Part shown: in pieces, positions 229 to 19,447 of the stretch
How the letters are laid out: each line of letters begins with the position of its first letter
How positions within the stretch are numbered: the stretch's first letter is position 1
NCBI GenBank assembly: GCA_001792305.1
Contig: MGGH01000025.1
Span: 1-37,518 of the forward strand
Reading direction: 5' to 3'
DNA from: Candidatus Woesebacteria bacterium RIFCSPHIGHO2_01_FULL_39_23
Lineage (GTDB): Bacteria > Patescibacteriota > Microgenomatia > UBA8517
DNA: 37,518 bases
Position numbers and translations under genes: made by a program
Notes under the pieces: model-generated
The model's input: only the letters and a program-made list of their open reading frames with translations
What the model was told of the DNA's origin: nothing
The model's database searches: none

Positions 229-1563
229 TTAAACATTTGAGATAATACTCTTTACCAATTTTACACCTTCGGAAAAAAGTTTTCTCGAATGCTCCTCAAT
301 CTTGCTTTCGGCAAAAACTCTAAACTCAGGGGCATTCAGAGACGAACGAAAAAGAAGCCATTCATCATCACCAAGCCATATTTTTACACCGTCACGGTCG
401 TCAATCTTTACTCCTTTATATTTTTTCTTTAATGACTCGTAAATTTTGTCCATCAAATCCCAATCATAATCGAACTTGGTTTTAACTAAATAAAACTTCG
501 GCAGTGTGGCAATCAAACCCGAAAGAGTTAGGTTAGATTTTTTCAAAATATTTAATAGTTTTATAGTTGTCGATCCACCATCACGGCTCATCATCACTTC
601 AGCAGAAATACAACCACCGTTAGGTTCAAAGCCAATATGAGAACCGGTTAATTTCATTTTCTCAACCACATAAGGTGAACCGACTTTTGTTCTGTAAACT
701 TTCTTACCAATGTAATCAACTACTTTTGAAGTGCTTATCGGGGTAACTACCGAATAGCCGTCTGCAAATTTTGCAATAATAGAGGCGCTAAAGTCCCCAG
801 GTATAAACTTTCCTTGCTCGTCAACAAAAACGGCTCTGTCACCATCAGAGTCGTACCCGATTCCCAAGGCTGCTTTTTCTCTTAACACCCTTTCTTTAAG
901 CTCTCTAAACTCTTCTTCCACCTCGGTGTCTCTGGCGAAAAATTTGCCCTGTATCGTGGTATTTAACTCTACTACTTCTAACCCAAGTAAATCTAATACC
1001 TGTGGCATTATATCCGACTGAGCTCCATCACCTGCGTCAACTACCACTTTCCATCTTGGATAATCTTTATCTGCAATTTTAATAAGCATTTCGCTGTACT
1101 CAGTTTTAGCGGAATCTTCACTATGAGTTTTTACCTCAAACCCTCTGTAAAACTCCTTTTCTTTTAAAGAATTGTAAATGTTTTCAATTTCCGCTTCTTG
1201 TGATTTGAGTATCTCTTCTTTATTAAAGAAAAACTTGACACCGTTTAAATAGTCCTTAATATGACTACCGGATATCATGACACCGCCTGCGTACTGGCCT
1301 CCAGTTTGCAAAATATAATTTATCGACGGGACACAAGTGGCACCTTGATCATAAATTTCTCTACCCTCAAAAGATAATCCCGACATAACAGCTTTTGAAA
1401 TTCTAGGGCTAGATCCTCTTGGGTCTATACCTACAGCCACGCCTCCATCATTTTTATGTAAAGTTATAAACTTTGCAAAAGTTCTACCCAAGTCAAAACA
1501 GAATTGCTTAGTAAAAAGCCTCTCAGCATCGCCTCTTATGCCGCTTGTTCCAAATAGGGCCAT
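229..1563 (-). CDS. Phosphoglucomutase/phosphomannomutase (alpha-D-phosphohexomutase family)
   Basis: MALFGTSGIRG start, SGSHIKDYLNGVKFF (active serine loop), DSDGDRAVFVDE metal-binding loop. Confidence 0.93.
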   Translation of the reverse strand: MALFGTSGIRGDAERLFTKQFCFDLGRTFAKFITLHKNDGGVAVGIDPRGSSPRISKAVMSGLSFEGREIYDQGATCVPSINYILQTGGQYAGGVMISGSHIKDYLNGVKFFFNKEEILKSQEAEIENIYNSLKEKEFYRGFEVKTHSEDSAKTEYSEMLIKIADKDYPRWKVVVDAGDGAQSDIMPQVLDLLGLEVVELNTTIQGKFFARDTEVEEEFRELKERVLREKAALGIGYDSDGDRAVFVDEQGKFIPGDFSASIIAKFADGYSVVTPISTSKVVDYIGKKVYRTKVGSPYVVEKMKLTGSHIGFEPNGGCISAEVMMSRDGGSTTIKLLNILKKSNLTLSGLIATLPKFYLVKTKFDYDWDLMDKIYESLKKKYKGVKIDDRDGVKIWLGDDEWLLFRSSLNAPEFRVFAESKIEEHSRKLFSEGVKLVKSIISNV

Positions 1564-1570
1564 TAATTTA

Positions 1571-1634
1571 TTCTATACCCAAAATACTTTATCACTAACT
1601 AGAATTGCAAATTCGATTTAGTGGGGTTTAAATT
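1571..1634 (-). repeat. Copy C (shortened) of intergenic hairpin/promoter element, directly upstream of the phosphohexomutase
   Basis: Reverse complement TTTAAACCCCACTAAATCGAATTTGCAATTCTAGTTAGTGATAAAGTATTTTGGGTATAGAA. Confidence 0.75.
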
Positions 1635-2294
1635 CTTAATTATGATAAGGTCAAGGGAAGTGAGTAAATCAACTTTACCTATTTTCGAATTATAGTCAGC
1701 TTCAGCCAAGAGAGATATTATTTTTTTAAGCTTTTGGACACTAAATCTTTCAGATTGTCTTTTGAGTTTTCCTATCCTCCAGGGCGGAGCATTAAAAGTT
1801 TTAGGCTCTGTTTTTACCCAATAGATGTCCCGCAAGTGTCTGGAAAGAATAGCAAGAATCATTTCGACTGCGTTTTTTTCAACGACTTGATGGAGTAGAT
1901 CCAAGATTAACTTGACATTACTCGGATAAAAAGAGTCAAGAAAGGTCCAAAGTTTTTGCGGAATGTCAAATTTTTCAACCTTGGCTCCTTTTGGCAAGTT
2001 TCCTAATATCGTTTTGCCTATTTCTTTCGAAAAGTAAGCAATGACATCAACCTCTAACGTCTTTTTCTGCTTCGTAACAAAATTTTGGAAAATTCTTGGG
2101 TCAACATCGTCAATTACATAGAGTGTCTTTTGACTAAAAAGTGATTGCAAACGGGTTACCTCCTGTAAATTAACATTTTCTTTTCCCCCAATTCTCTTGA
2201 CTTCGTAGCCTTTCTCTTTAATGTTATGAACAATCTCTTCAAGTCGGAGTTTTGATTTGACTAAGTCTTCGCCGTGAACCAAGAGTATTTTCAT
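1599..2294 (-). CDS. DNA polymerase III delta subunit-like protein
   Basis: 231 aa; MKILLVHGEDLVKSKLRLEEIV start and helical C-terminal region resemble small HolA-like proteins. Confidence 0.55.
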   Translation of the reverse strand: MKILLVHGEDLVKSKLRLEEIVHNIKEKGYEVKRIGGKENVNLQEVTRLQSLFSQKTLYVIDDVDPRIFQNFVTKQKKTLEVDVIAYFSKEIGKTILGNLPKGAKVEKFDIPQKLWTFLDSFYPSNVKLILDLLHQVVEKNAVEMILAILSRHLRDIYWVKTEPKTFNAPPWRIGKLKRQSERFSVQKLKKIISLLAEADYNSKIGKVDLLTSLDLIIIKNLNPTKSNLQF

Positions 2295-2946: not shown

Positions 2947-3444
2947 TTATCCTGAAACCCGAGTACTATATACGTGGCATAATGCTACAGCTAAAGCATC
3001 TGCACTATTGTCAAAGTGTGTCTTTTTTCGCGCACGGCTTCGAACTTTACTCCCGAGCACTTTTCTGACAGACTGCTGTATCACTTTTTTATCAGCTCTC
3101 CCATCACCCGCTATAACTTTTTTGATAGTTCCAGGTGCGTATTCAAAAACCGGTACCTTAAAAGCTGCCGCTGAAAGGAGCATCACTCCCTGAGCCTGAC
3201 CAACCTGTATAGCTGTTTTGGCATTTGTCGCAAAAAACAACTTTTCAATTGCCAAAACGTCTGGTCGATGTTCTTTTAAAAGAGCACGCATTTCCCTGTA
3301 AATACCAAATAGTCTATTTTCCGCTAAAAGTTCTTTATTAGTTTCGATTAAACCAAATCCACGAAGAATAATACCATTTCCATTTACTTCTATTGCTCCC
3401 CACCCAGTTGTTGCTGTTCCGGGGTCAATACCAATAACAAGCAT
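2947..3444 (-). CDS. ruvC: Crossover junction endodeoxyribonuclease RuvC
   Basis: MLVIGIDPGTATTGWG, AIEKLFFATNAKTAIQVGQAQGV, HFDNSADALAVALCH. Confidence 0.95.
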   Translation of the reverse strand: MLVIGIDPGTATTGWGAIEVNGNGIILRGFGLIETNKELLAENRLFGIYREMRALLKEHRPDVLAIEKLFFATNAKTAIQVGQAQGVMLLSAAAFKVPVFEYAPGTIKKVIAGDGRADKKVIQQSVRKVLGSKVRSRARKKTHFDNSADALAVALCHVYSTRVSG

Positions 3445-3451
3445 TAAATTA

Positions 3452-3552
3452 TTATACCCAAAATACTTTAATTTGCATCCTCAAAATTGTATTTTGGGGG
3501 ATCAAAATCACTTGCGAGGATTGTAAATTCTTTGTAAGTGGAGTTTATACCA
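3452..3552 (-). repeat. Copy A of intergenic hairpin/promoter element, directly upstream of ruvC
   Basis: Reverse complement GGTATAAACTCCACTTACAAAGAATTTACAATCCTCGCAAGTGATTTTGATCCCCCAAAATAC...AAAGTATTTTGGGTATAAT. Confidence 0.8.
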
Positions 3553-3553
3553 G

Positions 3554-3916
3554 TTAAATGCGTCTTGCTGCTCGGCTGTAGATTTTTTCAATCTCTTTTT
3601 TAGACTTTTGCCTTATATAGTACAGCTTAGAACGGCGAACTCCCTCTTTGCCCTTTCTTTTTACAATCACTTTTTCGATCGAAGGCAAGTTTATAGGAAA
3701 TATTCTTTCAATCCCTACTTTTGTAGATCCAATTCGCCGAACAGTAAATGATTTACCAAAACCCCTGCCTTTTATTGAAATTACAGTACCTTCAAATACC
3801 TGTGTGCGGGTTTTCCCTGTTTCGCTAGACGATTCTCCTTCTTTGACATTTATGTGCACAACCACCTTGTCACCTACGCCGAAAACGGAACCTTTAAAGT
3901 TCACTGAAATTGCCAT
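3554..3916 (-). CDS. rplS: 50S ribosomal protein L19
   Basis: FEGTVISIKGRGFGKSFTVRRIGSTKVGIERIFPINLPSIEKVIVKRKGKEGVRRSKLYYIR. Confidence 0.95.
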   Translation of the reverse strand: MAISVNFKGSVFGVGDKVVVHINVKEGESSSETGKTRTQVFEGTVISIKGRGFGKSFTVRRIGSTKVGIERIFPINLPSIEKVIVKRKGKEGVRRSKLYYIRQKSKKEIEKIYSRAARRI

Positions 3917-17340: not shown

Positions 17341-17458
17341 CGGATAAACTCATCTAACTCAGGTTTGCAACCTTCGTTAGAGATCCTGCCTACCGGCAGG
17401 TAAGTTTGATCCCCAAAAATATTATCTTTATATGCAAATTTAGAATTTTTGGTATAAA
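17341..17458 (+). repeat. Copy D of intergenic hairpin/promoter element (with palindrome insertion)
   Basis: ATAAACTCATCTAACTCAGGTTTGCAACCTTCGTTAGAGAT...TTTGATCCCCAAAAATATT...TATGCAAATTTAGAATTTTTGGTATAAAC aligns with copies A and B. Confidence 0.8.
17385..17400. repeat. GC-rich palindromic repeat CCTGCCTACCGGCAGG
   Basis: 6-bp inverted arms CCTGCC/GGCAGG; absent from paralogous elements A and B at the aligned position. Confidence 0.65.
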
Positions 17459-17466
17459 CTTCAGGC

Positions 17467-17985
17467 ATGGGAGTAATTGAGGATTCAATTTTTGCAAACT
17501 ACAAAAAAGCATTGGAGGAAGGAAACTTTGATCAGGCTAGAAAAGCCGTGAGTTTAATTCAGGAACTAAAAAAAAGAATAGAGTCTGGTGAATTTTTAGA
17601 TTACTCCATAGACTGGAGCCCTGGTCCTACCAGGCGCTACGAGTCTTTCAACCCTTTTCCCTACAGATATTATCCAGATCAGGGGATAGTAGTATTTGGA
17701 AACTCTGCCATTAGACTTACGCCAACCGAAAACCAATTATTTGGTCTTTTTTCCGAAAACGAATCCAGTGGCAATATAATCAAAGTAATCAGTAAAAAAG
17801 CGATAATGAAATGTCTATGGGAAAATAAGACTGTTACACAAAGTGCTCTTCGTATTGCAATTCTTCGGCTTCGGGAAAAAATCGAGCAGGATTATAAAAA
17901 CCCTAAAGTTGTTATTAAATCCTACGCTAGAGGTTATATTTTTCTAGGCAAAAGAGAACCAGATGAGTCTCAAAATATAGAGTAA
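17467..17985 (+). CDS. Winged-helix DNA-binding protein (OmpR/PhoB-type C-terminal domain, no receiver domain)
   Basis: C-terminal IRLTPTENQLFGLF..VTQSALRIAILRLREKIEQDYKNPKVVIKSYARGYIF matches Trans_reg_C pattern. Confidence 0.75.
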   Translation: MGVIEDSIFANYKKALEEGNFDQARKAVSLIQELKKRIESGEFLDYSIDWSPGPTRRYESFNPFPYRYYPDQGIVVFGNSAIRLTPTENQLFGLFSENESSGNIIKVISKKAIMKCLWENKTVTQSALRIAILRLREKIEQDYKNPKVVIKSYARGYIFLGKREPDESQNIE

Positions 17986-18551
17986 TTATTTTGATCATTT
18001 ACAGGTTAACTAACTGTAACAATATTGTTTGGACCCATAATAATACTGTTTGTTAAACGGGTGGTTTATTCTTATCAGTACCTTTTTCATAGTCAAATTG
18101 ATAACAATTTTTAATCTAATCTATGGGGAAAATATTCCAAATAATAGTAACCTATCACTTTATAAGTGAAAATGTCTCAAATGAAAAAATCCAAGTGACT
18201 TATTGAAAAACTACCGAAAAACAATTTTTGCTTTGTTAGCAATCCTATAACCCGATTGCTATTTTAGCTAGTCCGGTTTTTTTCCCAAAAAATTGTCATA
18301 TTTAATAAATTATAAGAATATGTACTTTTTCTTTAAAAACAAGTACTCTAAGATAATTTATATCCTTATTATCGGAACAATTATTTTGTGTAACTAATTT
18401 TTATTCTATTATTAACAACGTATTATAGGCTTTCTAATAGATATTTATGGAATTTGTTATTTTAACAATTTCACAAACTTTATTTTACTCGATCAATAAA
18501 TTTATTTACCAATATCGTAAAAATAACTTATTACAAAAAAGTTACTTTGTT

Positions 18552-18658
18552 CAAAAACCAAAAGAAAACCTAAAGTCATGCTTGACTTTTACAGGTCGTT
18601 CGATAAAATTGGCCTAAACTGATCTCTGCTCCAAATCAGATAAAAATGTCACGATTTG
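18552..18658 (-). ncRNA. Candidate small RNA downstream of element copy B promoter
   Basis: Minus-strand TTTTTGGTATAAAA at 18664-18676 followed ~70-90 nt later by hairpin AAAGTCA-AGCA-TGACTTT (18572-18589) and T-rich AGGTTTTCTTTTGGTTTTT; no ORF. Confidence 0.3.
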
Positions 18659-18660
18659 AT

Positions 18661-18760
18661 TGCTTTTATACCAAAAATACTTTGATCTGCCTTAGAAATA
18701 GCATTTTGGGGATCATAATCTCTCACGAGAGTGCAAACTCGAGTAAGAGGAGTATATGTG
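18661..18760 (-). repeat. Copy B of intergenic hairpin/promoter element
   Basis: Reverse complement CACATATACTCCTCTTACTCGAGTTTGCACTCTCGTGAGAGATTATGATCCCCAAAATGC...AAAGTATTTTTGGTATAAAA. Confidence 0.8.
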
Positions 18761-18817
18761 TCAAAGGTGACTCCGTTTGATTTGTAAGTACAAAACAAGG
18801 AGGTGAACAATAAACGA

Positions 18818-19447
18818 ATGGACATCAAATCTCTTTTAAAAATAATCAAGGAAAACGAATCACGCCTAAGCACGGTTCTTGGAATTGTAGTGATACTGAT
18901 TTTTGGGATTGTCGCAATTAACTACTTTAGAAATATGAACAAACCTGAAGAACTCACTATTCCAGCCGAAACAACCCAAATGGAAGGACTTCCTACCACC
19001 CATACTGTGAAAAGCGGTGAAAACCTTTGGAAAATCGCAGAAGAGTATTACAAATCAGGTTATAATTGGGTTGATATAGCTGAAGCAAACGAAATTCCTT
19101 TTCCGGGTAATATTGAAGAGGGACAAGAACTTACAATCCCAGCAGTCGAGGCCAAAAAGGTTACTGTTGTAGAAAGTCCCTCAATTGTTACCGAGACACC
19201 TGAACCAACAGTTCAAGCTACGCCAACTCAAAGCCCGCAACCTACCCAATCGCCCGAAAGTTTAACTGAGGAGGAAAAAGCATTAGCTACGATAGATAGT
19301 TACACTGTTGTACGAGGAGATAACCTTTGGGAAATCGCAAATAAAGTTTATGCGGACCCCTACAAGTGGGTGGAAATAGCGCGTGCAAATAAATTGGTTA
19401 ATCCTGACTTAATCCACGCCGGCAATGTCTTTGTAATACCCCGCTAG
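18818..19447 (+). CDS. Membrane-anchored protein with two LysM domains
   Basis: TM segment then HTVKSGENLWKIAEEYYKSGYNWVDIAEANEI and YTVVRGDNLWEIANKVYADPYKWVEIARANKL; AAGGAGGTGAAC Shine-Dalgarno favours ATG 18818 over track start 18803. Confidence 0.9.
   Translation: MDIKSLLKIIKENESRLSTVLGIVVILIFGIVAINYFRNMNKPEELTIPAETTQMEGLPTTHTVKSGENLWKIAEEYYKSGYNWVDIAEANEIPFPGNIEEGQELTIPAVEAKKVTVVESPSIVTETPEPTVQATPTQSPQPTQSPESLTEEEKALATIDSYTVVRGDNLWEIANKVYADPYKWVEIARANKLVNPDLIHAGNVFVIPR

Follow-up and report, generated by a model that had tools for sequence, protein, structure and literature searches.

A probable miniature mobile element with covarying hairpin ends inserted into -10 boxes in Candidatus Woesebacteria

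Within a 37,518-nucleotide contig of Candidatus Woesebacteria bacterium RIFCSPHIGHO2_01_FULL_39_23 (the whole stretch analysed, hereafter the window; contig 25 of the 37 in an 850 kb assembly, 92% complete), four short stretches share a hairpin and a promoter-like TATAA end. Are they promoters or RNA elements kept in place, or copies of something that moves? A preliminary description, made by eye from the letters of the window, had aligned them. A covariance model recovered all four at about the same positions and no further solid copy in the window, and a MAFFT alignment of the four spans both hairpins and the terminal TATAA. The shared blocks and arms are as described, apart from details in copies C and D. 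By its FtsZ (77-79% identical), the host is close to Candidatus Woesebacteria.

Copy A (3451-3549, minus strand, 90.4 bits) lies between rplS (3554-3916) and ruvC (2947-3444), both on the minus strand. Its left TATA (3546-3549) is preceded by CTGG. Hairpin 1 pairs the outer arm CACTTAC (3534-3540) with the inner arm GCAAGTG (3509-3515), and hairpin 2 pairs the inner arm CCCAAAATAC (3489-3498) with the outer arm GTATTTTGGG (3457-3466), which adjoins the TATAAT hexamer of the right end (3451-3456). A TGCAAA block (3472-3477) stands 15 bp before the right TATA, at a -35-like position, and this spacing is conserved. The hexamer, -10-like in sequence, is found 6 nt before the ruvC ATG, a leaderless spacing. 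The same spacing (TATACT, 6 nt, ATG) is present in G001, a genome of the same genus in which the site is empty and reads CTGATATACT; the position of the ruvC box hints that leaderless transcripts may be frequent in this group. Native -10 boxes of the group often read GGTATAAT or TGATATACT (window 3451-3456; L250, L251, L254).

The three other copies differ in their surroundings. After the promoter-like end of copy B (18665-18758, minus strand, 93.6 bits) there is no gene, a point missed in the preliminary description; it is the left end that faces a gene, encoding a LysM protein (18803-19447, plus strand). Upstream of this gene and outside the element, TTGACT and TAAAAT form a promoter-like pair with a 16 bp spacer (18582-18609, plus strand), and comparison with G001 reveals a TTGACA pair at the matching place. 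Because of this pair, we assign copy B to the leader of the LysM gene; it is some 55 bp downstream and does not interrupt the -10 box of the pair. Copy D (17343-17458, plus strand, 62.2 bits) has a third, small hairpin (17385-17406) inserted between the usual two, and its right-end -10 hexamer TATAAA (17453-17458, plus strand) is 8 nt before the ATG of a winged-helix gene (Trans_reg_C in Pfam, 17467-17985); the G001 counterpart is too different for the site to be called occupied or empty. Copy C (1562-1632, minus strand, 31.8 bits) is partial: it retains hairpin 1 and the right end, but the GATCCCC block is missing, as is the first arm (5') of hairpin 2. Its -10-like TATAGA (1572-1577, minus strand) is 8 nt before the ATG of a phosphomannomutase-like gene (229-1563, minus strand), and it overlaps the 3' end of a pol III delta-like gene (1599-2294, minus strand), to which it supplies the last codons and the stop. 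The pol III delta-like gene stops several codons earlier in G001.

Five sites could be compared between the host and G001, whose orthologous DNA is mostly 66-79% identical: ruvC, gyrB, recG, pheS and an RNase H-like gene (the last four named from the encoded protein starts). All five are empty in G001, with both flanks continuous, and each holds there a single -10-like box (ruvC TATACT, gyrB TATAAT, RNase H-like TATAAT, pheS TAAAAT, recG TATAGA), in place of which the host has TATA-element-TATAAT/AAA/AAG. At ruvC, the host reads CTGG-TATAA-ACTCC...TTTTGGG-TATAAT-AATTTA-ATG, and G001 CTGA-TATACT-TGGTTA-ATG. The corresponding pairs are ATCTGT-TATATACTC...GGG-TATAAT-AAACAGGC and GTCTGG-TATAAT-GAAATCAGC for gyrB, CTTCGCG-TATAAACTCC...GGG-TATAAT-ATAGCC and CTTCGGG-TATAAT-TGCC for the RNase H-like gene, CTCTAGAG-TATACTCC...TTGG-TATAAAATAACTTC and CTCCAAGG-TAAAATAACTTC for pheS, and GATATT-TGTAAACTCC...GGG-TATAAGTGAGATATG and GTATT-TATAGATACTATCTATG for recG. 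At every site tested, the element is thus inserted into a -10-like box. Since gyrB is also free of the element in other genera whose start region was compared (G005, G009, G013), a gain in the host lineage is the simplest reading. TATA stands on both sides of the element and one TATA-like box at the empty site; a duplicated TATA and one carried in by the element look alike.

Copies of the host and of G001 are up to 92% identical, element identity between genomes reaches 93%, and in every same-genus pair compared (host/G001, G009/G055, G015/G057) similarity ends at the element borders. Empty sites together with the lack of shared flanks argue for mobile insertion, and we regard a mobile element that inserts into -10 boxes as very probable. 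The proposal that a promoter or RNA element is conserved in these intergenic stretches is not supported, the sites being empty in G001 and the flanks not common between genomes. The terminal TATAA, which had been called promoter-like, is genuinely -10-like, and at the five sites open to comparison it falls on the box of the host gene itself; promoter activity itself is inferred from sequence.

The two ends of the element are inverted repeats of each other, another feature that had gone unnoticed: both read TGCAAA-N15-TATA outward, with GG or GAG immediately before TATA. The TGCAAA-to-TATA spacing is 15 at 38 left ends and at 45 right ends; another 11 left ends, most of them of the AACTCC subtype, have a spacing of 17, and in about one third of the ends no TGCAAA block can be recognised. 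Inspection by eye reveals this plan in diverged subfamilies of three genomes as well (G063, G070, G102), some copies of which have a clear TATA-hairpin-TATA-hairpin-TATA layout.

How widespread is the family? The element measures about 90-95 nt, is non-coding, and its copies lie mostly between genes. A pattern search of the host genome with the terminal 14-mer gave many more matches, with the same element in the 100 nt upstream, and BLASTN with the consensus gave 29 matches in the host genome and also hit 14 of the 37 other genomes. With the covariance model R1, about 29 copies in the host genome are solid, and 21 of the 76 genomes searched, host included, carry copies. The further copies expected genome-wide and in other CPR genomes therefore exist. 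Their distribution is patchy, relatives having 0-7 each versus about 29 in the host, and with strict filters across the phylum, copies were found in 6 of 380 genomes, one of which, outside the class, holds eight. Repetition on this scale is far beyond chance: a degenerate end pattern matched 41 times in the host genome and never when reversed; the same comparison gave 17/0 in G001, 28/0 in G021, 16/0 in G070 and 12/0 in G068. Phage records and IMG/VR contigs contained no match to the element.

Some copies form groups of their own. Matching extra inserts are found within the host pair L070 and L079 (C33:20841, C23:21536) and within the pair L084 and L085 (C34:4714, C1:9321); in one pair the shared insert is the hairpin AGCGGATTGCCGCT, and the other pair has other matching inserts. 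It is as if these were amplified subtypes. In G070, a diverged subfamily (L273-L282) is present in many copies, nearly identical to one another, that bear two different hairpins; some are composite and several lie near contig ends. This suggests that the subfamily was recently active, and makes G070 a promising genome in which to seek the enzyme. The same flank accompanies a copy in two genomes of different families (L259, G157:C61; L267, G102:C91), and either transfer or faulty binning may be the cause.

Most copies lie near gene starts. In 19 of 57 copies, a possible start codon of a long ORF comes 2-10 nt after the right-end hexamer, versus about 5% at random positions. An outward gene start lies at most 60 nt from an end in 49 of the 57 (P ~7e-9), a test that is weak alone because its null is high (0.49). 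The ends so used are the right only in 23 copies, the left only in 16, and both in 10. At L008 and L013 a solo right end persists although the remainder of the element is decayed, and copy C of the window persists likewise; this survival would fit their use as promoters. Around L008 and L013, where an autonomous element was sought, there are only ordinary genes (peptidase-like and lyase-like, named by eye), and the decayed copies there are promoter-like remnants.

Covariation in the hairpins was measured on 69 distinct copies (set A5, unedited genome matches only, unlike the seed alignment A4, in which rows B and D had been edited) aligned to the model, with 22 pairs. Standard pairs occupy 91.2% of the cells, and 19 of the 22 pairs change on both sides. 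There are 164 double-change cells, compared to 38 +/- 5 in shuffled alignments (0 of 500 reach the observed value) and at most 51 when the partner was slid; the alignment, being fitted to the model, favours structure, and the margins over both controls are very large. Within one genome, the arms of hairpin 2 vary as CCCAAAATAC/GTATTTTGGG, CCCATTTTGC/GTAAAATGGG, CCAATTTTAC/GTAAAATTGG and CCAAACATAC/GTATGTTTGG. Fold z-scores were -3.8 to -6.2 for most single sequences tried; the exception is copy A, whose fold over its full length is poor (z -1.2). Selection thus acts on hairpin pairing, on top of mobility. Compensatory changes had been taken to mean structure rather than just a copied repeat: selection on structure is borne out, and the either/or is false, since the empty sites and the unshared flanks show mobile insertion as well. 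Wobble counts (GT:AC) have opposite biases in the two hairpins, 5:26 in H1 and 45:20 in H3, as if each were read from a different strand, the one that runs outward through its end, a reading that is suggestive only because few columns carry the counts.

These observations can be combined as follows. The element would be a non-autonomous miniature mobile element of about 90 bp, of the MITE/REPIN kind, built as TATA-hairpin-linker-hairpin-TATA with the halves inverted. Its target would be TATA, in many cases a promoter's -10 box, and TATA would be left on each side. As TGCAAA lies mostly 15 bp inside TATA at either end, with GG or GAG just before TATA, an outward promoter could be restored from the interrupted box on each side, and insertions may survive for that reason. 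The folded hairpin ends would be recognised by an enzyme acting in trans.

Two readings without mobility have to be weighed. If the element were a cis-regulatory promoter module, either a global regulator site or a hairpin-controlled promoter, the window would contain four members of a regulon. The position of most copies just upstream of gene starts is as expected from such a module, as are the ends, which resemble -35/-10 pairs at fixed spacing. However, the five target genes that lack the element in the same-genus genome keep a -10-like box of their own, and the targets (ruvC, gyrB, recG, pheS, LysM) are unrelated. Moreover, in the one syntenic intergenic region common to the host and another genus (L064/L104), the distances to both flanking genes differ, so that the element occupies different positions. 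The empty sites largely refute this reading, which we consider very improbable. A structured RNA copied around the genome, whether leader, riboswitch or small RNA, would account for the strong covariation and the wobble pairs; RNA folds reach z -4.8 to -6.1, and some copies (B, C) overlap gene ends or leaders and are thus probably transcribed. Against this, the Rfam covariance models gave no match at gathering, nor at E<=1 on three loci, just as no named family had been recognised in the preliminary description. A right-end -10 would also start transcripts outside the element, orientation relative to genes is mixed, and the opposite wobble biases, though dominated by few columns, are unlike those of one transcribed strand. 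A structured RNA is improbable too, if very slightly less so than the regulatory module.

Granted mobility, which enzyme could move the element? The possibilities considered here lie within the mobile reading, and the weight given to a RAYT-type or a DDE transposase takes nothing from that given to insertion into -10 boxes. One candidate is a RAYT-type Y1 transposase, the mover of REP/REPIN elements in Pseudomonas. An element of that type would share with ours the paired inverted hairpins with compensatory changes, the intergenic location, movement in trans and a short tag at the foot of the hairpin (here TATA, there GTAG); Y1 genes are moreover common in the relatives. However, no Y1_Tnp (PF01797) was found in the host genome, complete to 92%, nor in six other carriers (G001, G003, G005, G009, G028, G052), and none of 30 Y1 loci has a copy nearby. 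Y1 enzymes act on one strand, and the wobble pattern suggests symmetric ends. Y1/RAYT was therefore set aside as the mover, and we hold this origin to be rather unlikely. Somewhat better placed, and still doubtful, is a classical DDE transposase acting on a MITE, the hairpins being a by-product of the ends. The inverted repeats at the termini, which contain a fixed motif, the symmetry of the ends and a possible 4-bp TATA duplication speak for it. Yet each hairpin is contained within one end instead of joining the two, the stem sequences change with compensation, for which there would be no need if the ends were bound as double strands alone, and IS630 DDE_3, the candidate tried, is absent from the host genome and was dropped. 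No pair of ends enclosing a gene was seen among the matches listed, and the neighbouring genes, inspected for a possible partner, yielded a few gene clusters common to copies. More speculatively, and with less weight than either transposase, the mover may be neither RAYT/Y1 nor a known IS: it would recognise folded, single-stranded hairpin ends and insert into the -10 box because RNA polymerase melts just this segment in open complexes, promoters being a safe harbour because they are rebuilt both ways. Some arms read RYYYAAC/GTTRRRY, which we take to be reminiscent of integron attC sites; this candidate was abandoned, as no cassette arrays were seen and most copies misfit.

Short, non-coding, multi-copy and mostly intergenic, with terminal inverted repeats and empty sites, the element resembles MITEs in these features, and we file it as a new family of the MITE/REPIN kind, distinguished by -10 box insertion and covarying hairpin ends. 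Closest in logic are the Correia elements (CREE/NEMIS) of Neisseria, non-autonomous elements of about 100-150 bp, often upstream of genes, with terminal inverted repeats of about 26 bp that start with TATA, and a TA target; in their 'Black promoter', a -35 and a partial -10 lie in the element, and the insertion site completes the latter (PMC2649163, PMC10969869). In our element, a TTGCAA-like block at -35 distance and the host -10 at the junction could perhaps compose a promoter of the Correia type. The sequences differ, as the Correia repeat TATAG[CT]GGATTAA... is not matched and the ends here are TATACTCC../..GGGTATA, and 5 of the 5 tested copies of our element occupy a -10-like box that was there before. 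CIR apart, bacterial MITEs are described as forming one stem-loop by pairing of their 5' and 3' ends (PMC2229807). In contrast to these and to Correia, each end of our element folds into a compensated hairpin of its own.

In anatomy, the closest relatives are REP/REPIN sequences, intergenic as well and moved in trans, with two inverted hairpins, a linker and a short conserved tag at the foot. Their GTAG or CGTC tag is not found here, where TATA-like sequence occupies the outer hairpin feet and -10 boxes are targeted; and whereas a RAYT usually accompanies REP/REPIN copies, several genomes hosting our element have none, and RAYT loci lack copies. The CIR repeats of Caulobacter and Brucella have two inverted-repeat arms, a linker and a conserved motif at the loop (PMC2229807). 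Their two-arm layout is like ours, but their sequence is unrelated, no role of GANTC was seen here, and -10 box insertion and empty sites are documented for the present element. ERIC/IRU and RUP are small intergenic mobile repeats with TA at their termini (PMC2229807); they consist of a single stem-loop, unlike the two hairpins described here, and we found no report that they target -10 boxes, as our element does.

The literature search found no small mobile repeat from Patescibacteria, where few seem to have been described. The target of this one is very exact, and its design may restore the promoters it breaks, including those of the core genes gyrB, pheS, ruvC and recG. The family thereby provides natural before/after promoter pairs and a marker of -10 boxes for uncultured genomes, as well as a lead to the mobilising enzyme.

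Between the winged-helix and LysM genes of the window, a 655-bp AT-rich stretch (17986-18640, 26% GC) is free of genes. An RNA gene and a replication origin are both conceivable; inspection revealed no clear DnaA boxes in the stretch. The matching place in G001 is a non-coding stretch of 670 bp with scattered conserved blocks, such as CTAATCTATGGG and CGGAACAATT.
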